DNA from: Spinacia oleracea
Lineage: Eukaryota; Streptophyta; Magnoliopsida; Caryophyllales; Amaranthaceae
Assembly (NCBI RefSeq): GCF_020520425.1
Contig: NC_079487.1
Span: 132,454,385-132,518,384 of the forward strand
Direction of reading: 5' to 3'
Length of the DNA stretch: 64,000 nt
The notes beneath the pieces are model-generated. The model saw only the letters and a program-made list of their open reading frames with translations. It had not been told where the DNA came from and made no database searches. Below, piece after piece: positions 478 to 18,318 of this stretch (position 1 is the stretch's first letter; each line of letters starts with the position of its first letter). The translations under genes and the position numbers were made by a program.

Positions 478-3400
478 GTGCCTCTCGTGCTGATACGATT
501 ACAACCCGCTCATCTGAATCAGGAGCAACAGGATCGCCTATCTTGACTGATGCCCCAGTTTCACTTTGAATCGCCCGTATAACGGACCCACCTTTTCCTA
601 TCAAACCACCAATTTTACTCACATGGCATAGCATTCTGAAAACGACATCATCTTCGTGAGTCATCCTATGGTTATGATCGGCAGCATGACCACCTCTTTG
701 AGGGAAAGAATCTGTCGGACTAATGTTAGTTCCTTGAAACATATCAGCTCTGGGGTGCTCCTGAAGACAACTTGAAACTGACAAGAGAGCTTTCTTTACA
801 GCTTGAATGTTTCCTGCTATCTAAATTTCAGGAAAGGTGTTAATACACAGAAGGATCTATTACCCATCATAATGGAGGAAAGAGATTGATGGATCGATTG
901 TATTTATCAAAATAGAAATATGAAAATGATGCATGAGATACTATTCAGCAGAAGAGACAAGTTACAAGCTTACTTATGTCTTGTGTCATCCACTCATCCC
1001 ATGCACTTCTTAATATTAAATCTTCCTATTCCTTCAAAGCCACCATTCCACCAACATAGATGATATATGGGATTTGACATCAATCAAAATACATCATAAA
1101 TTCCATCTTAATACTAAGATCTGAAGAATTTGTAAACCCTGATCAGCAATATAACTTAGGAGAAGACATTTAGGCTCCATTTGTTTTGACGGCAAACACT
1201 TCCCCCGAAAATGATTTTTCCATTTTTCCCAAGTGGAAAAACATTTTTCCTTCTCAAAGGAAGGAATGCCAAATTTTTCTCTCTACTCCCTTACATTTCT
1301 TTTTCTCTCCTCCTTTAATCTCTCATTTCCACTTCTATTATCTTTTTCTCTATAGCTTTTCTAATAAGGAAACAAAAAAAAGGAAGACTATTTTCCCATG
1401 ATTTTCTCTTGAAATTTGTTTTCAATGGAAAATCATTTTCCTTTGAAAATGTTTTTCGTTGAAAACAAACAGAGCCTTAGAGGACATATCGTTATGCAGT
1501 TCCACTTACCTAATCTACACTGACGCAAGATACAACCAAAATACTGAGTAATAAATTGGATTTCTCCAAAGTCTATTCAAGCAATACCACAAACTTATGA
1601 AAGTCTCGCCTAGTTTTTTATAACCTCGTATCTCTAATTTGACAAATCCATACCAAACAAACAGAAGATGCAGGGAGTGGTTCATTAAAAACAAGATGAG
1701 TTCCTCAGCCGAGTCAGCCTTGATAACTCTTTAGCATCGTCAACCTCCAAAGTCCAAACATCAATCTCTGAGTCTATCCCTATTTTGCAACATCGGCAGT
1801 AGTAGAAGCAGTAACATTCTACTACTTACCTCCCAGTAGTAGAAAGGGGAAAAGGTATAGATCAAAAGGTGCAACAAAGAGTTAGCAAGATCACATCAAC
1901 AGTTAAGCATACCTGGAATAACTCCTCCTTACCTCCCATCTCATTCTAAGCCTTTTCTTATACCTTTGAAAATCTCATGCTTTTAATGTCAATCCTGCAA
2001 ACCTGTCATTTCCTTACGAGTCATTAGGGTGCCTTCTCTTCATACATCCTAGTATCACCTCATTTTTCTTGAGCCCTATCTTCATCAGTGATCATTTCCT
2101 TCTCATCTAGAACCACTCTGATTATAATTTTATTTTCCCAGGATAACCAGAAATTCAGTCAAGCATACTCATCTAAGTGACTTTTGGTTTACAGCAGAAA
2201 TTAGATTCCTCTAATTTTTATCAGGTGGAACTCCTCTCATAATCCTTTGGAAATAAAAAGTCCATAAAAAATTTCAACGATTTTTCCCTCCAGTCATTCT
2301 CCCTACCATCTTCCACGGTTCCACCCCCTAACTGCAAGCTACTCTCAGACCCTCGCATTCAACAAATTTTTCAACTTAACTCCAGGTGAAATTGACATCC
2401 CAGCAAACAAATACTTACACCAAAGCTTCATTCTCCCCTTCCTATTTGGCACATTATGCATCCATAAAAGTGGTAAACACCAACAACGGTGTGGATGTTA
2501 CAACTACTATAGTCCCACAACTCCCGCACATATAATAGACCAAGTTGAGAGTTACAGTCAACCGTCAAGTCGTCAACACTCAAATAATGATGATCTTATT
2601 TATGACATGCCTACCACTGCCAGGCTACCATACTAAACCACACCCTAGATACTGTTATTTGCATATCTCAAAACTCCATGTCATTCGTACACAGAACCCG
2701 ATACCTTCCCAGAAAGATAAGCAAGTGCCCAAGAAAAAATGAATTCTACTACAATTATTTAGCTCTGCAGTGAACTTGAACAAAAATACAGTACAAATAA
2801 GTTTAAGCTAGCAATTATCAATGTCATTAGGAAGTGATGCTTTCTTCACAATACTATCTAAAGGTTGGATAGTTAAATATGCTAAGCTAACAAAGTCCAG
2901 TTTTCGGGTCAGAGATTTCATGTATGTAAATCAAATTTCACCAAAGCAAGGATAGTTGGGGGGATTGTATATTAGCTAGTCCGGACAAGGCTTTCCAACT
3001 CGAATTCACAGCGACTAATGATCGAAATACCATCTTAAAGAAATTCACAAGAAAGTACACTATTAAACAAAATATATCATTCTATGCAGCCCTGTGAATA
3101 GATTATCAAATTGAGCAAAATAAAAGAGGGGTTTTCACCTGAATGAGTTCCTCCCCAGACGAAGCACAAGCTGGAAGCTGCTCCCTCGGCAAAACCCTAA
3201 TTTGAGCACCACTATCTTGCCTAAGCTTCTCCACAATCTTCCCTCCCCTCCCAAGAACACACCCAACTTGATTACTCGGCGCCAACAATCTACAAACTAT
3301 ATGTGCACCACCACCGCCACTACCACCGCCATTACTATTACTACCACTCTCCCTTCTATCATCGTCCATTTTCTCACTCCTCTGCTCTTCATTCTTCTCA

Positions 3401-3786
3401 CTCCTCTCCTCATCGACCTTCAATATCCTCTCAAACACCTTCACCAACGCCGCCTGCGCCACCGACCCCTCTTCCCTCTCCTCAATTGAATTAGGGTTAG
3501 GGTTTTTAGAATCGGCAACGATATGGATTACCCTTTCGTCGCAGCGGGTAAAAGGGGGGAGGTCGTCAACGATACGAATACGAGCACCAGTATCTTCTCT
3601 AAGTTGCCGTATCACGGCGCCGCCTTTACCAATAACTCCACCGACTTTTACGGCGGGGCAAAGAATTCGGAATTGGATTTCGCCGCCGTTGTCGGTGGGT
3701 TTGGGTTGTTGAGTGGGCGGAGCTGATGACAATAAAGGCGGATTAGAGTGAGAGTGGTGGCGTTTGAGAGAGTATTGAGGTTCCAT
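478..3786 (-). CDS. KH-domain RNA-binding protein, PCBP/HEN4-like (5' part, partial)
   Basis: Exon 1 is 3139-3786 (216 codons, ends in phase 0 at CAG|GTGAAA). Exon 2 is 478-820 (acceptor TTTAG, donor CAC|GTAAAC). Joined, they read without a break. KH1 is about residues 36-122 with the GxxG loop GKGG, KH2 begins near 161 with GRGG, and KH3 lies in exon 2 with GKGG (IGGLIGKGG). A Glu/Arg-rich then Gly/Ser-rich linker (about 123-160) separates KH1 and KH2. Plant proteins of this family (HEN4, RCF3, At4g18375 type) usually carry five KH domains and bind single-stranded RNA in nuclear mRNA processing. The last two would lie left of the window, because 1-477 shows no further coding and reads as intron. 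An in-frame stop at 467-469 follows directly if exon 2 is not spliced. The ATG at 3786 is the first in frame and is preceded by a CT/GA-rich leader. The 2.3 kb intron 1 holds a Tourist-type MITE. Domain assignment is seen in the sequence; the precise orthologue is inferred. Confidence 0.9.
1173..1476. mobile_element. Tourist/Harbinger-type MITE in KH gene intron 1
   Basis: The terminal inverted repeats (TIRs) are GGCTCCATTTGTTTT at the left and the reverse complement of GGCTCTGTTTGTTTT at the right. The element is flanked on both sides by the 3-bp duplication TTA (1170-1172 and 1477-1479), as expected for PIF/Harbinger. It is 304 bp, has no transposase, and contains several internal inverted copies of a GGAAAA-type motif that would make a foldback. 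Confidence 0.75.
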
Positions 3787-4351
3787 TGTTGTTCGTGATT
3801 AATGGTGGATTCTTTTTTGTTTTTGGAGGTTTTTGGATTGGAGTGGAGTGGACCAGAGTTGACGAAGAACAGGAGAGAGAAAGAGATGGGGAATGCACAA
3901 AGGCTATGGATACACAGAGGGTAAGTGGTCCCTGTGTACCCTGGCCATATATTGGTTCAATCCACCTCAGCATCGCCACATCATCCCCCAATTTCAATTT
4001 GAAATTTCAGCTTCACTTTGAATTTGAAATTCAAATGGCTGAGGATTTTTTTTTCCTTTATTTTCTGTCGATGATACCAAAGTTAGAAGGAATTTTTTTT
4101 TTCCATTTCATCTCATCTCTGTCAATGGTAGGTGATGAAAGGCGATACACCATTTTAATTAAGGTCACCATGTTAATATCGCTGTAGATTGCAATTTCCG
4201 TCGTGTTTTTGGATTATTTTGTTCGAATTAAGAGCTGTTATTGGCACGAAATCAATATTGTCGAATTGATTAATGTTTAATTTGCGAAAAAAAAAATCTG
4301 CATTTCAGATTTGATAAGATCCAATCGGAGAAGATGACTGCGGAGTTTCCA
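3787..4351. other. 5' leader and promoter region of the KH gene
   Basis: This holds the transcription start region of the minus-strand KH gene at 3786, with a GA/CT-rich stretch at about 3840-3890 as often seen in plant leaders. No second gene is recognisable. Short open frames here lack codon bias or domain similarity. Confidence 0.4.
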
Positions 4352-4745
4352 AAGTAAATATTCTGTTTTAAAAAGCGCCCAAAAAAAAAAATTGAAAAAT
4401 AGTGGTTGTCAAGGCTCGAACCCCGTACCGCAGCGTGGATGAATGAAAGAGTTATTGATAATGCTAGTAACCATTGTGACAGTGAGGCAAAGCCATTGGC
4501 AATTGTCATACAAATTTTTAGTTAAGCACTCCTTGTAGTTCTAAACGTTAATGAGTAATTAATTTTACGTTGTATATCAATATTGACTCCCCATCATTGT
4601 GTTGTATGTTTTTATATAATGTATGATGATACCTCCCCTATTATGTTATACATTTGTATGTCTTATAAAAATGATGCCCAAATTTATTTTGTATTTTATT
4701 ATTTTATTTTTTTGAACCGAAGTTATAATTTAAATCAATCATTTC
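4352..4745. repeat. Direct repeat copy 1 (3' flank of the 59-aa gene)
   Basis: This closely matches 6855-7245 in the same orientation, with only scattered mismatches. Shared landmarks are GCCCAAAAAAAAA, CAAGGCTCGAACCC, GATAATGCTAGTAACC, and a common tail ending at TTTGAACCGAA. Read on the minus strand, the middle carries GGGTTCGAGCC, which resembles a tRNA B box. It may be the terminal region of a transposon or a degenerate SINE. Confidence 0.8.
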
Positions 4746-5042
4746 ATTAATAAACTATAATTGCAAGTTATAAGAATATTCAATAATTAAAATTTCTTGT
4801 TAAACAAATAGTACATCAAAATAACAACTTATAATATATATCCTTTAGTCCACAGTCGTACGTTGTTATATCCTAATTGCGTACACAAATGTTACATCAT
4901 AGTACCGTACACAAATTCAAAAGTGTCATACCAAAGTCCTAAACCCCTCTGAAACAGTATTAAGTACCGTTTTTACTACTTAAATTAGACACTAATAAGT
5001 AACGATAAACAAAATGTTACATATTAGTCTATTGCCGAAAAC

Positions 5043-5679
5043 CTATTCCTCAGCGAACAACCTACGCAACGACTCCCCGTAATCGTCGTCGTCCCAAATA
5101 CGTTTCCATTCCTTGCAAACAGCTCGAATTATTTTCCCTTGACGGGCCGAAAAATTCGGGAAAATATGAAGAGCTAAAATGAGTTCGTTATAAAACACAT
5201 CATGCGCCTACAACATTGAACATTTTAGTTAGGAATTGTTGTTTAACTAAAACTAACATTACGCAACCTAAATTAAAATCAAAATAAAGACCAAAACATA
5301 ATTTTCAAAATTTCGGAATAATAACACTAACAAACATAATTAAAACTTCTCACCTAAATTATGTACCAAAACGAAAAATAAGAATAGAAAGTAACTAATA
5401 TTTTCACCTTAAATTTTGTACGAAATTTTATTTTCAAGTCAAAATTAACAATATAATTTAACTAAAATTAACACTCATTAAGCCTAATTGACCCTAAATA
5501 GAATTGAAGTAAAATTAACAAAAATAACCCTAAGTTTAGTGGTAAATTTGTTACGAAAAAAACTTGCCAAAATTACCAAAAAATGACTATTACTAAAAAA
5601 AATCGAAATCATGATCTTACAACCTCCCATTTGAGTAACTAAAAAAAAGAAAATGTTTAATTACCTTGATCTCCTCCAT
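5043..5679 (-). CDS. Small two-exon gene, 59-aa hydrophilic protein, function unknown
   Basis: Exon 1 is 5665-5679 (ATG GAG GAG ATC AAG, then GTAATT). Exon 2 is 5043-5207 (acceptor TTGTAG). The splice keeps phase 0 and gives MEEIKAHDVFYNELI... ending ...LRRLFAEE. A TATA box (TATAAATAG at 5780-5772) lies about 93 bp before the ATG. The C-terminal half has an Arg/Lys/Trp patch followed by four consecutive Asp. The protein is too short for a whole domain and I do not recognise the family. The 3' side carries the same repeat as the neighbouring GRF gene, so it may be cargo of a related transposon. Missing upstream exons are possible, but the TATA box and leader argue for a complete small gene. 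Confidence 0.55.
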
Positions 5680-5771
5680 TGTTGAGTGGTTTTTGGTGGA
5701 AACTTGAGGGTTTTGGAGAGTGTTGGGTGGAAGAAAGGTGAAGTAGGATTTTTCAAGTGAACTTGAAGATC

Positions 5772-5780
5772 CTATTTATA
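5772..5780 (-). promoter_or_regulatory. TATA box of the 59-aa gene
   Basis: TATAAATAG is read on the minus strand. It sits about 93 bp upstream of the ATG at 5679, leaving room for a 60-70 nt leader. Confidence 0.5.
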
Positions 5781-6854
5781 ATGTGTTTCCAAGTAAGTGT
5801 TTTAGGGCAATGTAAACTATAATGTGAGGCTTGAATTGTTATTGTAATACGAGAAACTTTTGAACTTCCGGATTTTATTTTCACACTGCCAAATGAGTTA
5901 AGTTGTATTGAGATGTTAGAGCATTCCCCAACTTTGAACAATTAATTGTTGCTATTTACAGTTTTGTTGTATATGATTTTGAACAAATTTACTTTCGTTG
6001 AAAAACGAAAAAGTAAATCAGCTTTATTGATATAAGTGAGACGCGTGGTGCATGTAATAAATTAGAGGAAGCCAGCGCAATAATGCAATAAAAGTGGGTT
6101 CATTTTTATGTATTTTCTGAAAAAATTCGTAAACAATTTTGGTAAATTTTTTCACAATTGTGTAAAATTCATTTGGTTTATTTACTAGTAAAAGAAAAAA
6201 TCAGATAAGTTGGTATATATATTGTTTTATTTCGCATGTTAGTTTTATAACGACATTAACAATATTAGATAGATATAACAATGTAAATTATCGTAAAAAA
6301 CTCATATTTTAAAGAGTGGTAATGAAAAATTTATTGATTTAAATAAGTATATAATTTATAATATATAACCATAAATTAACAATTTTAGTTATCAGATCTT
6401 TTTGCATGTTATGTCAACGAGCCGAGCTCAACCGAGTATTTCGGTGTTCGACCTAGGATTAGGCTTGATGAGAAATTTCCGATCTCGAGCTCGAGCGGAG
6501 CTTAAATGAGCTTTCATTTTTCCGTTGTTTTAGCTTAGGTCACGAGTAGCTTGTTTAAGTTCAAGCTCGAGCCTAGCCGAGGTATTACCAAACGTGCCTT
6601 AATAAACGAGCGTTTAACAAACAAGCCTTAAATTACCAATATCGAATTTAAATGATCATATGAATAAATTAAATATTATTTAAAAATATTATAAAACATA
6701 AAAACATATCCAAATTAAAAGGTAGCACAGTATCCTATTTATATTTTGTTAGCTGAGAAGATTAATAGGACTAAGTTACATTTGCTGTGAGGCTTAAATT
6801 ATCACTGCATGGCTCGTGTATTAGGGCAACTCGAGCAGTGTAAAACCCTTCGTA
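5781..6854. other. Intergenic DNA with a GAGCTCGAG-rich element remnant
   Basis: No gene is seen. About 6415-6630 is locally GC-richer and made of GAGCTCGAGC/ACGAGC-type units. This composition is typical of non-autonomous hAT remnants in plants; complete termini were not found. The rest is AT-rich. Confidence 0.4.
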
Positions 6855-7245
6855 ATGTAAATATTTAGTTTTAAAAGGTGCCCAAAAAAAAATTGAAAAA
6901 TAGAGGTTCTCAAGGCTCGAACCCTGTACCTCAGCGTGGATGAATGAAAGAGCTATTGATAATGCTAGTAACCATTGTGACAGTGAGGCAAAGCCATTGA
7001 CAATTGTCATGCAAATTTCTAGTTAAGCACTCCTTGTAGTTCTAAACGTTAATGAGTAATTAATTTTACGTTGTAGATCAATTTTGACTCCCCATCATTG
7101 TGTTGTACGTTTTTATATAATGTATGATGATACCTCCCCTATTATGTTATACATTTGTATATCTTATAAAAATGATCCACTCATTTATTTTGTATTTTAT
7201 TATTTTATTTTTTTGAACCGAATTTATAATTTAAATCAATACATT
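6855..7245. repeat. Direct repeat copy 2 (3' flank of the GRF gene)
   Basis: This is the second copy of the 4352-4745 repeat, in the same orientation about 2.5 kb away. It ends about 105 bp beyond the stop codon of the minus-strand GRF gene. The pairing of each copy with the 3' end of a minus-strand gene suggests it is the 3' part of a transposon family. Confidence 0.8.
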
Positions 7246-7350
7246 CCATTATTCGGTAATTAACAATAAAACCAGAATAAAAACCTGTAACCAAAAAAAT
7301 AATAAAGAAATATATTGCGTCCAAAGAAACCCCTACTTTATTATCTACTG

Positions 7351-7893
7351 TTACACTCTCCAAGTATTTAGAGAAAAAAATAATACAAAGAATGTCAAAA
7401 TAACGCACATTCTAAAACTTAGTTTTTCATTTGATTTTGATTCATAAAAGCGTAGCATGATATCCTCATTCCTTGCCTCCAAATATGCAACTTTTTCCAA
7501 CAGCATTTTATTTTCTAGAAATATCTTTTCAACTTGGAATTTCAAGCGCACAGTTTCTTGCTTGAGATTACAATTCTCATCTTGTAGCTCATCTAGAATG
7601 TTACCGTTTACCTCACTTTCCCAAAAGAAAAAACCACAAGTATCATCCTGTAAAAAAACCGATCATCATTCTGAAAACCAAAATGTTGGGAAAAAGTGAT
7701 TTAAATCTACCTAATGAATCGATTATATTACCTTCCATACCGGGCAAGAGTAAAATTGTTGGCCCTTGTTTTTTGTGTGTTTGCATGTTTGTAGCTTGGC
7801 CTTGTAACCATGGTAACATTGAACTTGCTGTGCCTTACAAGAACTGCCTCGCGAAGAATTTGCCGAATTGGGTGTTCCTTGCTCAATAGCCAT
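7351..7893 (-). CDS. GRF-type zinc-finger protein with coiled coil and C-terminal TM
   Basis: Exon 1 is 7732-7893 (54 codons, AAG|GTAATA) and exon 2 is 7351-7647 (TTACAG acceptor), phase 0, giving 152 aa. Residues about 26-64 form a GRF-like zinc finger: C26, H28, the FYSC motif (C50) and C58 followed by GFFFW. The usual GR-F core reads GQQF here, a departure from consensus. Residues about 68-125 are predicted coiled coil, and a hydrophobic stretch (CVILTFFVLFFSL) near the C-terminus looks like a membrane anchor. Plants have many such short GRF/coiled-coil/TM proteins of unknown role, often amplified with MULE-type transposons. It sits in a run of minus-strand transposon-type genes. The two-exon model is strongly supported by frame and motif continuity; function is unknown. 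Confidence 0.8.
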
Positions 7894-8202
7894 ATATATT
7901 CTTACTAAATGTTAATTTTTGTTTTGTTTTTTTTTTTGGGCACGTAATGTAAGTAGATATCCCACAGAAACGGTCATTATATAGAAGTCCAGATTGTTAC
8001 CGTTGCAATTTAACTTGAATAAAAAAATAATAATCTAATAACAATACAACGAAAACCTAACCTAGTTAAATAATAAAAAATTAAAAAATCTAATCGTGGG
8101 AGATAGGATAACTAAAATGAATACAACAAATTAATAAAACTATAGGAAAGTTATTTGGACACATACTTGAAAATTGTTTGCAAACAAAGTCGACGACAAT
8201 TA
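7894..8202. other. Spacer between the GRF gene and the Ulp1/DUF1985-like gene
   Basis: AT-rich DNA containing the promoter side of the GRF gene and the 3' side of the next gene. I see no coding or repeat structure beyond a T-run near 7925. Confidence 0.4.
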
Positions 8203-8944
8203 TTAAATATTCCCATACACAAATTCTTCAATGACGGGTCCAAATCCGTAATCACCATTTGGTCCTTGATCTGCTTTTAATGTCCTGTCAATGTCCTGTT
8301 GGTCCCATACTCGTACGCGGCAGGCGTCGGGTGCGATGTTCAGATCAGCTCTGGACGATGCTAGCCTATCGATATATATGATCTGTTATTTTTAAGGGAA
8401 ATAATTGTTGTTAGGTACATGTATACCTATGGTTTTCATAAACAAACGAGTGTTTGTTATTAATTTTGTTATAACTTACAAGCAGTAGAAGTGTGCATCC
8501 ACCATAGCCCTGAATTGAATTTTTGAATTTTTCCCCGTATTTGACAAGCCAATCCAACACATATGCTGCCCAATTATACTTTGTTGCCTCTGAAGCTTTG
8601 TCTAAGACGGTGATATGTATCGGGCTTATCCAACCACATTTTTGTGTAGGACAAAGGAGAGTTCCTAAAGCATATAGTAAGAAATGTTTTTTGAAACTAA
8701 TCTTGTCTATATGACAGTCGATTATTTTTGAATAAACCTCAGATTCTGTAACCGCACCATAAGATGTGTTTTGTTTATACTGCCTCTTTGTGTGAATATC
8801 TACAAGTTTTGAAGAATTATTTGGTAGCAAAAGGTGCTTCCCCGAATTTAAACCTAAAACCCAACTAATTGTTTCCTCGTCTATTTTAACGTAGTAATTG
8901 TCCCGTATCTTCAGCTCTAAGTTGTCCGGGTCAAACCTAGACAT
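8203..8944 (-). CDS. Transposon-associated protein, Ulp1/DUF1985-like N-terminal region
   Basis: Exon 1 is 8480-8944 (155 codons, CTT|GTAAGT) and exon 2 is 8203-8382 (AACAG acceptor), phase 0, giving 214 aa. Landmarks are RFDPDNL at the start, ETISWVLGL, a FLLYALGTLLCP block, and KYNWAAYVLDWL. The splice joins ...CTLLL to IIYIDRL. This order (RFDP, VLGL, LLYALGTLLCP, NWAxxVLDxL, LxxxYxDR) is what I know from the large plant family found with Ulp1 proteases and MULE/Helitron cargo. No Ulp1 catalytic domain follows, so this is either a short family member or a truncated one. The frame stays open for six codons upstream of the ATG, so the N-terminus could be longer. Family assignment is from memory, not from a search. 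Confidence 0.72.
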
Positions 8945-9023
8945 GATCCAATAACCAAATATTTAAATCACTTATTAAGAAATAATCACAACACCGCTTG
9001 ACAACACATTTTATGTTTTGTAG

Positions 9024-9372
9024 GACAACATATGGAACGACATTAACTATTCCAATCCTGACAACCAATGTGACATACCGTATGAGGCTCCCACGGGCAC
9101 GAACAGAGGGGTAGGCAACTTTTCATATATTCGTTGCCATTGTTTGTGGGTACAAAGATGATTATCTTTAACCAAACTTTTTGTTGTAGGATATCGAGGG
9201 TCAACAAACTAATAATACAATTGAAAGCGATCCAATATTACCCAATGCGGGTAATGCTGCTTCTGGAGTAAACAATGATCTGCCGGTTGAAGAGGGTAAG
9301 GTTCAAAACAAGCATGGTCGTCCACGAACGTTGTATCGTGATCAGATGGAAATACGTCAATCACATTGTTAG
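9024..9372 (+). pseudogene. FAR1/FRS C-terminal-like exon remnants
   Basis: Two plus-strand exon-like segments are 9024-9110 (TTGTAG acceptor, GGG|GTAGGC donor, 29 codons) and 9190-9372 (TTGTAG acceptor). They join in frame. The second contains KHGRPRTLYRD, resembling the basic GRPR tail of FAR1-related proteins. After 9347 the frame runs into sequence antisense to the captured RAD51-like fragment of the opposite-strand gene and stops at 9372. No upstream exons are visible, because the Ulp1-like gene lies on the other strand there. This is best read as a broken fragment joined tail-to-tail with the chimeric gene. Confidence 0.45.
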
Positions 9373-9907
9373 CCACAACAACGGCAACATGATTGGATGC
9401 GGCAATTGTACGTAACCCATAACCAATAGCTTGTATAAGATCCTTTCTTTCGGTTGAGCCAACAACATTGTTTTCAAAATGACCAGTGAACATACTACCT
9501 ATTGAATCAATAACAACAACGCGGATTGGCATTGATGAATTTTGAGACATTTTACAACCGGTCACATTAGACCCAACACCTTTTTTCACCCCTCCCTTCT
9601 TGCATTTTAATCTAATAAGTTCCATCATATGAGGCTTTGCCTCATACTTTCCCACACCAGACTTAGATACTCCGCTTTCTTTGTACTCTTTTTTCAGCTT
9701 ATTACTTTTGATAAACATCTCAAATCCTTCTTTGAAGGCATACAACTGACAAAATTCGAAAAACTCATGGCCCGTTGTAAAACACATCCCTACACTAGGG
9801 GGGTTAACGATAACTTCTTGTCCATCAGTTATTAATCTATATTGTGAGCTTTCAGGAACATTTTCATTCAGATCAGGGACACTTTCGTTTAGGTCTACCC
9901 AAGCCAT
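9209..9907 (-). CDS. Chimeric FAR1-domain / RAD51-XRCC3-like fragment protein
   Basis: A single open frame of 232 aa. Residues about 36-120 look like a FAR1 DNA-binding domain as found in FAR1/FRS proteins and Mutator-like transposases: start PSVGMCFTTGHEFFEF, then LYAFKEGFEM, a Lys-rich loop, and a closing RLKC...TGCK. At about residue 124 the sequence changes to MPIRVVVIDSIGSMF and on to VAVVVANNVIDVF. That is the Walker B (VVVIDS) to loop-2 region of RAD51-family recombinases, most like plant XRCC3. The Walker A half is missing, so ATPase function is not expected. From residue 188 the protein is antisense of the plus-strand GRPR fragment and looks meaningless. Such fusion is typical of gene-fragment capture by MULEs. 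The open frame could still be expressed; whether it is functional is unknown. Confidence 0.65.
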   Translation of the reverse strand: MAWVDLNESVPDLNENVPESSQYRLITDGQEVIVNPPSVGMCFTTGHEFFEFCQLYAFKEGFEMFIKSNKLKKEYKESGVSKSGVGKYEAKPHMMELIRLKCKKGGVKKGVGSNVTGCKMSQNSSMPIRVVVIDSIGSMFTGHFENNVVGSTERKDLIQAIGYGLRTIAASNHVAVVVANNVIDVFPSDHDTTFVDDHACFEPYPLQPADHCLLQKQHYPHWVILDRFQLYY

Positions 9908-10941
9908 ACAGAACTCCCACGTATATCACTGTTGTACAAAATACGAAAAACGTTTAGGAATTTATACAATGCTGCCATACACCGAATTATCTGGCACGGT
10001 ATTTATATATAAAACATACAAACATAATATATACAAGGAAATTTATAATAAACTAACAATTTATTGTTTAACCATATGGGGTAGCATACAACTTATAACG
10101 TTCTTAATACTACGTAAATATAGAATTTGTTGAAATTATCAAAGAAAAACGCCTAGTTATCTCCGTCGTTCAGATCTACGTTCTCACCAACAACAAAGTA
10201 TGATTCATCAATATCAAGCAACTACAACTTATCATCAATTCAAACAAATTTAATTACCATTAAAAACACATTCATATACCATTGTTTTTTTCAGGAATTT
10301 ATGAGCTAGATTTGACAAAATCACTTGAACTAAAAACTTACATTATCTTCGATGCGGGATCTCGAAGCTGAATTTCGAAGCTGAATCACCATGTAGCAGT
10401 TCTACAGTTCTGCTAAAAACTCTCCTTTGTGTTTTTATTTGTGGCAAGCTAGATAACATGAGTCCAGCTTTGCCTAATTTTTTTTAAGAGTGATTTAGGG
10501 TATTAAAATCTTACCGTTGGGTTTTTGAAATTGGTATATTATGGTTTTTTTTTTTTTTTAATTACTTTGATATATGGGCGGGATAAAATTAGGGGAAGCA
10601 AAGGGCGCATTATTTCCCGCTTAGCATCCCTAAATGGCGCAATCAGTGAAAAATTTTCCCCCTAAAACCAATTGCTTTTCCCCCTAAAACTGAATTCCTC
10701 TTTGCCTACTTGGACCAACAAGCTTGCAGTGTACCTGGGCCCCAGTTACACCCAGTGTAACTGTATCAGCTCCCTGGGGAATGGTGAGAGTGAGGGGTTT
10801 GACTTCAAAAGTCAAAACCTCTGTGGTTTTGGGGTTTAACGAAAGAATTTCTGAATTTGAGATTGTCATAGGACATCAATCACCATTCACCTCATTGTGT
10901 TATTTGTGCACTTGACTTGAACCAATAGAATTGGGCCATTG
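9908..10941. other. Intergenic DNA upstream of the chimeric gene
   Basis: Promoter side of the FAR1 chimera, then AT-rich DNA. A minus-strand open frame at 10684-10869 has moderately protein-like composition, but no motif I can name. No clear MULE terminal repeat was found, although 10565-10620 has GGGCGGGATAAAATT-like sequence that could be a degenerate terminus. Confidence 0.35.
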
Positions 10942-16431: not shown

Positions 16432-16824
16432 GGTAGTGTTCTCTTCACCTGAATTTCACTTATCATATCTTATCTTATTGGCCCTGAACTTATCTTATTT
16501 TATCTTATCTTATCTTATTGACCCTTATCTTATCTTATCTTGTCTTATCTTATTGACTCTTATCTTATCTTATCTCATCTTATTGAAACTTATAGTATTA
16601 CCTTACGTAATATTTACCTCACCTTATCTTATCTTATCTTATCTTATCTTATCTTATTGGCCCTGAACTTATCTTATCTTATTTTATTGATTATGAACTT
16701 ATCTTATTTTATCTTATCTTATTGGCCCTGAACTTATCTTATCTTATCTTATTGACCCTTATTTTATCTTATAATATCTTATCAGACCTGAAATAAGTGA
16801 ATATAATGTGAAGAGAACATAGCC
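16432..16824. mobile_element. Tourist-type MITE with CTTAT pentamer array
   Basis: Left end GGTAGTGTTCTCTTCACC, right end GAAGAGAACATAGCC (inverted). Flanks are TAA (16429-16431) and TTA (16825-16827), a Harbinger-like site with one change. The interior is almost entirely CTTATCTTAT repeats punctuated by GGCCCTGAACTTATC. Confidence 0.7.
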
Positions 16825-18318
16825 TTATACAACAACTAGTCAACTACCATTACGCAATTATCCTACAGTTGTATGTTATTGCTCAGCAACATTCTCCACA
16901 AACCCTACCACCTTCACCACCACGGCACCACGTACTTTATAGCTGCTTTGTTACGGTTATTCCGCAGATTTCTATGTATCGTTTTAACGTTTTTTGACTT
17001 GTCAAAATGATCCTCGGTAAGAAAGTGGATCATTACTATTCTCTCATGAGTCAAGAACAATATCACAATAATGTTGGAATGTCATAGATAACCATCTATT
17101 AAGAAATGGATGAAATATACCAATTACTACGTTACCTTTAATTCATCTTTCTTAGACATGGTCATATGAAGTCTAACCCGAAAATTCCAAACATTCAGAA
17201 GGTTTCAAATTTTTTGGACACTTTAAACCAGTTTTCTGTTTTTTACAAAATTAAAAATCAAAATATAAAAGCCTAGATAGTTTCAACTTTTTATTATCAA
17301 TTTTCAAAACTAACATGATTATTATAAGTATAGTTATTTTTAGTTCATTATGCGATCTTAATCATATAAGTTGTAAAACTTTTTAGAAAAATCCGAAAAC
17401 TAAACCTGAAAGTGGTATTGAATGAGCTCTTAATTATAATTTTGCCATTTGTTATCAAAGTCTTGCCCAATTTGCCATTTGATTAGTTCTAAACTTCTAA
17501 TCAATATAATACACTCGTAATTGTTTAATTGTGATGGAGTGATGGTCAAAATGTTCGAATATTACGAGCTGTAGAACTGATAGAAATTTGAGGACGCACG
17601 CGGAAGTTTTGATGGGCCTTATTAATATATCAAACTTGCATTTTCATCACTGATTACATTATAAGAATTATACAACAATATTTGCGAGAGTTCATGTCTC
17701 TCACTTATCTCTTTGGTAGACCCCTTGTTTCTACCCTCATATTTGTGGAAGCTCTCTTGATTGACTCATCCTAAACTTATGCAAATATAACCTATTTATA
17801 GATATTGTATTATGGTTTCTAGATTCTTCGACTCCCTCTCATCATCTAGATTTTTTTTAAGGTTAATTCTATACATTTCCTAAGTTTATTCTAGATTATA
17901 ATTTACAATCATATTTCTAGATTTTTATATACAATACATTTCACTACTAAATTTTTACAAACATATTATCTAGATTTTTCTAGATTAATATTTTAACACA
18001 TCACAGTCGGATTTCCGTGGTGAGCGGAAGAGAACAACCTCGCTAGTTAAAAAAAACACGTGTCAAAAGAGTGGTGGTTGAATATAGTTGATATTTTTAT
18101 TGATCCCTTCTCTAAAATTTGGAAAATCTTTTTCTAATGTTTGGTTATTCCTACGGTTGCTTTCTCATGTGATTTGTGACTCGATCAACCTTAACGGTCC
18201 GCTGCTCTCTTGCCACGTCATGCCGTGCTATTTATAATTTTACATGGTCCACATGCTATTAAATATTTAATTTTATTCTTAAAAATCACTCTATATGCTC
18301 CTACTTGTTTGCCACATC
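16825..18318. other. Intergenic DNA without recognised genes
   Basis: AT-rich; a possible LTR-like stretch around 17600-18000 could not be bounded. No coding signal. Confidence 0.35.

Follow-up and report, generated by a model that had tools for sequence, protein, structure and literature searches.

The window analyzed here, a stretch of 64,000 nucleotides of Spinacia oleracea DNA, contains a chimeric open reading frame of 232 aa on its minus strand, at positions 9209 to 9907. The frame starts with an ATG and runs without interruption, as a sequence-only reading of this DNA had reported, and it exceeds the longest ATG frame, 161 aa, found in 30 mononucleotide shuffles of the 64-kb window. The frame is made of three parts. 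Residues 1 to 119 (9551 to 9907, minus strand) come from the beginning of exon 1 of a FAR1/MULE transposase, from which they differ only by K78S, and include a FAR1 segment that is cut short. Residues 120 to 193 (9329 to 9550, minus strand) are the Walker-B part of a RAD51-like gene belonging to the same transposable element; 226 bp are 100% identical to the parent element, and the 74 aa are those of residues 130 to 203 of the parental 274-aa RAD51-family frame. Residues 194 to 232 and the stop codon (9209 to 9328, minus strand) arise from reading in antisense through the terminal part of the gene that lies downstream in the element; these 39 residues are antisense to its GRPRT-containing frame. 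Near-identical copies in the same genome thus uphold the earlier view of an in-frame fusion between a transposase-type FAR1 segment and the Walker-B portion of a RAD51-family member, with XRCC3 as its nearest relative. The join is indeed sharp, near 9550, and the Walker A half is indeed missing; the parental frame has its Walker A at position 40. A second join within the 232-aa frame, at 9329/9330, had escaped that reading. Also absent from the chimera is the FAR1 segment's HNH motif, located at residue 140 in the parent and taken here to be a zinc-ligand pair.

The frame lies within an internally deleted, non-autonomous copy of a Mutator-like transposon of about 18.4 kb. This copy is 6,879 bp long and occupies positions 3896 to 10774 on the minus strand; it was delimited by BLASTN against the copy at G000:C4:149048562-149066952, with its ends set by a 9-bp target-site duplication, TGGGGAATG, present on the left at 3887 to 3895 and on the right at 10775 to 10783. 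Aligned with the C4 copy, the window copy matches in reverse orientation over four blocks, separated by gaps of about 3.3, 3.3, and 4.8 kb. Deletion junctions 1, 2, and 3 lie at 9548 to 9554, 9329 to 9330, and 8946 to 8963; they mark losses of 3.3, 3.3, and 4.8 kb and have microhomologies of 3 bp (TAA), 2 bp (CG), and 4 bp (ATTT), respectively, each of which is also found in the parent, on both sides of the lost segment. When 96 bases across junction 1 were used as a query, only one of the 40 places scored, the window itself, matched at full length. Given this single occurrence, the 9-bp repeats, and the missing blocks, the window copy is a single internal-deletion derivative.

A six-frame search of the genome (894,210,420 bases in 242 contigs) with the chimera is in agreement, since its sole full-length match is the window itself. 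The partial matches fall into three sets: 19 other places at 98–99% identity to residues 1–121, 16 places at 96–100% to residues 118–193, mostly 3.3–3.7 kb downstream of the FAR1 part, and 14 places at 95–98% to residues 193–232. Therefore, the parts of the chimera represent three places of one repeated element. Since the FAR1 and RAD51 pieces both already reside in one element of about 18.4 kb, 3.3 kb apart and in the parental order, the join of the chimera is an internal deletion: deletion 1 brought the transposase's FAR1 exon into frame with a central stretch of the RAD51-like gene that the element itself carries. The frame is open because two parental frames happened to meet in phase and were followed by a short chance read-through; in a copy that is unique and nearly unmutated, openness is not the sign of selection that it had been taken for. 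That a host XRCC3 fragment was freshly captured beside a FAR1 gene, giving a new chimera under selection, as first proposed, is hardly credible, for although the frame is open and single-copy, both of its parts come in parental order from one element, the comparison with the intact host gene shows the RAD51 piece to be 100% identical to the transposon gene while the transposon protein shares only about 37% identity with host XRCC3, there are three deletions rather than one join, and Walker A and part of the FAR1 domain are missing.

Profile searches say little about the chimera on its own. With Pfam, Rad51 reaches 14.2 bits (E = 0.027) where 22 are required, and FAR1 gives no match at any E up to 1. 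Pfam alone is therefore insufficient to identify the chimera, and the proof lies in its near-identity to other copies in the genome. Two methyl-coenzyme M reductase matches obtained with phmmer against the PDB, at E of about 0.5, were taken as chance, and a fold predicted without an alignment (pLDDT 31) is uninformative. Because Walker A and the end of FAR1 have been lost, the chimeric protein is probably inert. The chimera itself is an ordinary by-product of deletions.

The window copy retains remnants of two other genes of the element. One, at 9190 to 9330 on the plus strand, is what is left of the convergently oriented downstream gene (the GRPRT frame), found as the same frame on the minus strand in the parent. 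The other, at 8411 to 8944 on the minus strand, weakly resembles the plant mobile domain, with 17 bits against a cut-off of 34.9 (E = 0.0036); the parental gene likewise matches this domain below the cut-off (E = 0.0097). We also suspected a second parent for the window copy, the first ~820 bases of which are only 70–71% like those of nine parent copies. This was rejected, as a 5′ end of the window type occurs at 99–100% identity and full length in nine other copies. The element family therefore has two 5′ variants, and positions 9950–10774 of the window carry the variant that differs from the ~70%-alike type of the nine parent copies.

Four copies of the parent element, on C4, C5, C3, and C2, align with one another over about 18 kb, at 99.3–99.8% identity in large blocks. 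The FAR1/MULE transposase has two exons and is recognized through its MULE domain (PF10551, E = 8.3e-25, 87.6 bits, cut-off 27.6) and a SWIM zinc finger (5.4e-07); the FAR1-type domain, searched with a partial exon-1 piece, scores 16.1 bits (E = 0.02), below the Pfam cut-off of 28.1. The transposase is followed, after a gap of 0.98 kb, by the 274-aa RAD51-like frame and then by further genes on both strands. No Ulp1 (C48 peptidase) domain was matched by Pfam in the neighbouring and downstream frames tried, in a search of single exons, which a split domain could escape. Target duplications of 9 bp, within the span of 8–11 bp that marks the MULE superfamily, flank three of the five copies examined (the window copy, C5, and C2); none was seen at the C4 copy, and the ends of the C3 copy were not located with the search string used. 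Long terminal inverted repeats were not seen: judged by eye, the ends, GGGAGATGATACAG... and ...CCTTTGCG, are not inverted repeats of each other, and for this reason we class the element as a non-TIR MULE. Two direct repeats of 300 bp, 95% alike, lie inside the element at 4383–4682 and 6884–7183 of the window; they are present in the parent copies too and are perhaps nested small elements. The parent also contains 255-bp tandem repeats (G000:C4:149058510-149059455), the number of which varies among copies.

The RAD51-like gene of the parent is intronless and complete. Its 274-aa frame corresponds to a 266-aa protein, and the transposon protein matches the Rad51 domain (PF08423) at 2.7e-26 and 9.3e-30. 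A genome search with the 266-aa protein gave 68 matches, host XRCC3 among them. When a full-length copy is defined as one aligned from residue 15 or before to residue 250 or beyond of this query, there are 35 full-length transposon copies, 31 of them without a stop. Fifteen belong to the parent family, at 98–100% identity (14 without a stop), and 20 to other families, at 53–60% identity to the parent (17 without a stop). Same-family copies that are broken or deleted inside the RAD51-like gene were also seen, at G000:C3:21329252 (plus), C3:21352067 (minus), and C4:188840693-188841286; the first two are about 23 kb apart in opposite orientation.

The association of this gene with the transposase was counted once second fragments of the same loci had been removed, 11 from the 68 RAD51-like matches and 1 from the 90 transposase matches, which left 57 and 89, respectively. 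In all 19 parent-family copies (98% identity or more) and in 25 of the 36 copies at 69–76%, the 6 kb behind the transposase core contain a RAD51-like match. None was found behind the transposase in the nine copies of the sister family D (78–80%), nor in the 25 copies at 65% or less, a figure that is a sample because 89 of 1806 transposase candidates were scored. Viewed from the other side, a scored transposase core stands in front of 44 of the 57 RAD51-like loci, and the remaining 13 include host XRCC3 and the window copy, which has lost its transposase core to deletion. Behind the transposase of family D sits the next gene of the element, and the RAD51-like frame was not found there. From family D, and from the 11 of 36 copies at 69–76% without a match, it follows that one lineage at least can do without the RAD51-like gene. 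Family D is sister to the parent family in a transposase tree of 15 rows (support 100/99). Presence of the gene requires four changes on this tree, a degree of clustering not beyond chance (101 of 500 shuffles were as low), and given outgroups without the gene, the simplest reading is one gain and three losses. In this transposon lineage, the RAD51-like gene is a conserved component.

Is this conservation due to selection on the gene itself? Pairwise Nei–Gojobori estimates for 13 transposon RAD51-like sequences gave dN/dS values of 0.08–0.24 between families wherever they were computable, and of 0.10–0.24 for pairs with dS of 0.3–1.5, with dS saturated in several deep pairs. Within families, where dS is at most 0.11, the ratio is noisy (0.21–1.47). 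The transposase gave 0.10–0.12 at dS of 0.71–0.83, with a full range of 0.07–0.26. The low between-family ratios, close to that of the transposase, show that the RAD51-like gene has been kept by selection, that is, by purifying selection across families about as strict as that on the transposase. It could be argued that the gene is passenger cargo, conserved just through young copies spreading with the transposase, in keeping with parent-family copies that are 98–100% alike and with a family D that lacks the gene. This is very unlikely, as neutral cargo would be expected to approach a ratio of 1, yet the ratio stays at 0.08–0.24 between families separated by dS of 0.3 to above 1.5.

Sequence comparisons and the predicted fold show XRCC3 as the probable nearest relative of the transposon gene. 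The host XRCC3 gene (C4:148009940, L045), itself best matched in the PDB by XRCC3 (142 bits; RAD51B, 97), is a single frame of 333 aa, about 37% identical to the transposon protein, and is the nearest non-transposon locus to that protein in the genome. XRCC3 is also the best PDB match of the transposon protein as a single sequence (101.8 bits). A profile of 12 transposon proteins, built without the host gene, scores XRCC3 at 134.2 and 94.4 bits, against 84.9 for RadA and 81.8 for RAD51B. The fold model of the transposon protein is moderate (pLDDT 64, pTM 0.72), and the alignment behind it contained host XRCC3; the top three Foldseek chains are from 8gja (XRCC3), at E of 5.8e-19 to 3.6e-18, with RadA close at 4.6e-18. 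In a protein tree with 10 of the 13 transposon proteins, near-duplicates being left out, these form one clade (100/99) on a long stem. Their nearest neighbour is plant XRCC3, at a support of 79/58, which is not firm. A clade of all XRCC3 proteins with the transposon proteins is neither established nor rejected (p-AU 0.144), RAD51B standing with animal XRCC3 in the best tree. This loose placement leaves room for derivation from another fast-evolving member of the RAD51 family, such as RAD51B or a RadA-like protein. We regard such an origin as distinctly unlikely, since XRCC3 tops three kinds of search (single sequence, profile, and fold) and the nearest locus outside the transposons is the single-frame host XRCC3.

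The Lys-Thr of Walker A and the Asp of Walker B are kept in all 13 transposon sequences. In contrast, the column of the catalytic Glu, which follows the second strand and is E143 in human XRCC3, holds I, L, or V in every one of the 13, versus E in host XRCC3. According to passages of PMC7614784, RAD51D and XRCC2 lack the catalytic Glu and bind ATP without hydrolyzing it. Passages of PMC7618403 describe that mutation of the catalytic Glu of human XRCC3 abolishes the residual ATPase of its complex, and that this complex caps RAD51 filament ends stably, independent of ATP hydrolysis. In Arabidopsis, RAD51, RAD51C, and XRCC3 form a complex, as stated in part of PMC5470734. The transposon protein thus shares with XRCC3 the RecA-type core, Walker A and B, and an uninterrupted frame, but differs in its low identity to the host protein, the replaced Glu, shorter loops, and a transposon-borne existence in tens of copies.

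The closest systems to the parent element are VANDAL (with VANC) and Kaonashi (with KIU, which has an Ulp1 domain), the features of Arabidopsis VANDAL and KIU being taken from parts of PMC13317346. Like the parent, these are non-TIR MULEs with a FAR1/MULE-type transposase, no clear terminal inverted repeat, a 9-bp target duplication, several extra genes, and one host-derived domain conserved across families. The parent differs in that its conserved gene of host origin encodes an entire RAD51-family recombinase paralog, and an Ulp1 domain like that of Kaonashi was not found by Pfam in the neighbouring frames. Pack-MULEs are also Mutator-like elements with host-derived sequence, but passages of PMC6446971 and PMC6431247 describe them as lacking a transposase and carrying mostly gene fragments, whereas the parent elements retain the transposase together with the gene in its entirety, conserved despite deep divergence. 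Maize MuDR resembles the window family in the internal deletions of Mutator-element copies; its second gene, mudrB, is to our knowledge not RAD51-like. The function of mudrB is called unknown in part of PMC6446971. In the open-licence PMC literature, we found no description of a MULE with a RAD51 or XRCC3 gene.

A cut-and-paste transposon can increase in number only when the host uses a homologous template to mend the site of excision. Beyond a conserved RAD51-like protein without the catalytic Glu, every step of the role proposed below is one that we infer. MULE excision would leave a double-strand gap at the donor site. The transposon protein would bind ATP but hardly hydrolyze it; by itself or together with host RAD51C, it would associate stably with RAD51 filaments as their partner or cap. 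Such a cap would stabilize invasion of the sister chromatid and bias repair toward copying from it, which would restore the donor copy and raise the copy number. Interrupted copying would end in microhomology joins and yield internally deleted copies like that in the window. Interrupted gap repair is reportedly, in a work cited by PMC2686159, the published model for the internal deletions of MuDR, and the three microhomology deletions of the window copy are the leavings to be expected of it. RAD51 has been reported in the repair of MuDR-induced breaks in maize, according to part of PMC6412738.

The RAD51-like protein is most likely an ATP-binding, non-hydrolyzing paralog that would tune RAD51 repair of transposition breaks. 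We consider it rather probable that the locus as a whole combines a deletion-scar chimera with the legacy of a transposon-borne XRCC3-like paralog that binds ATP, hardly hydrolyzes it, and steers RAD51 repair of excision gaps. The complete, conserved gene in the full-length elements suggests that these elements may affect the plant's repair of the breaks they cause. It is tempting to go further and propose a eukaryotic DNA-transposon lineage with its own dedicated XRCC3-derived, hydrolysis-dead filament cap, which would decide gap repair so that a cut-and-paste element copies itself, deletion derivatives of the window type being its failures; this we advance tentatively, with somewhat more doubt than belief.

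The main rival to a protein that aids repair is one that blocks RAD51. As a dominant negative, it would cap or poison host RAD51 filaments and thereby slow donor-site repair or blunt repair-linked silencing. Loss of the catalytic Glu in 13 of 13 sequences, the lack of an N-terminal domain, and the hydrolysis-independent capping ascribed to the human XRCC3 complex in passages of PMC7618403 would all suit a blocker. The same data fit a protein that aids repair equally, and nothing in them separates the two. A harmful protein should be costly to the host, yet 31 of the 35 full-length copies are without a stop, and we judge a blocking role to be possible but rather unlikely. For the favoured role in repair, a conserved transposon-borne RAD51 paralog and a sister family without the gene make the influence of an element on repair choice directly testable. 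The transposon paralog would also offer a natural experiment on the abilities of a RAD51 paralog that does not hydrolyze ATP.

Two other features of the window may be mentioned. A KH-domain gene (KH_1, 4.6e-28) lies at 3106–3786 on the minus strand, with its start codon about 100 bp from the transposon copy. Because the transposon lies this close upstream of the start codon, it may affect the promoter or the 5′ leader of the gene. A long array of TTATC-type pentamers and 10-bp repeats occupies positions 16435–16832.
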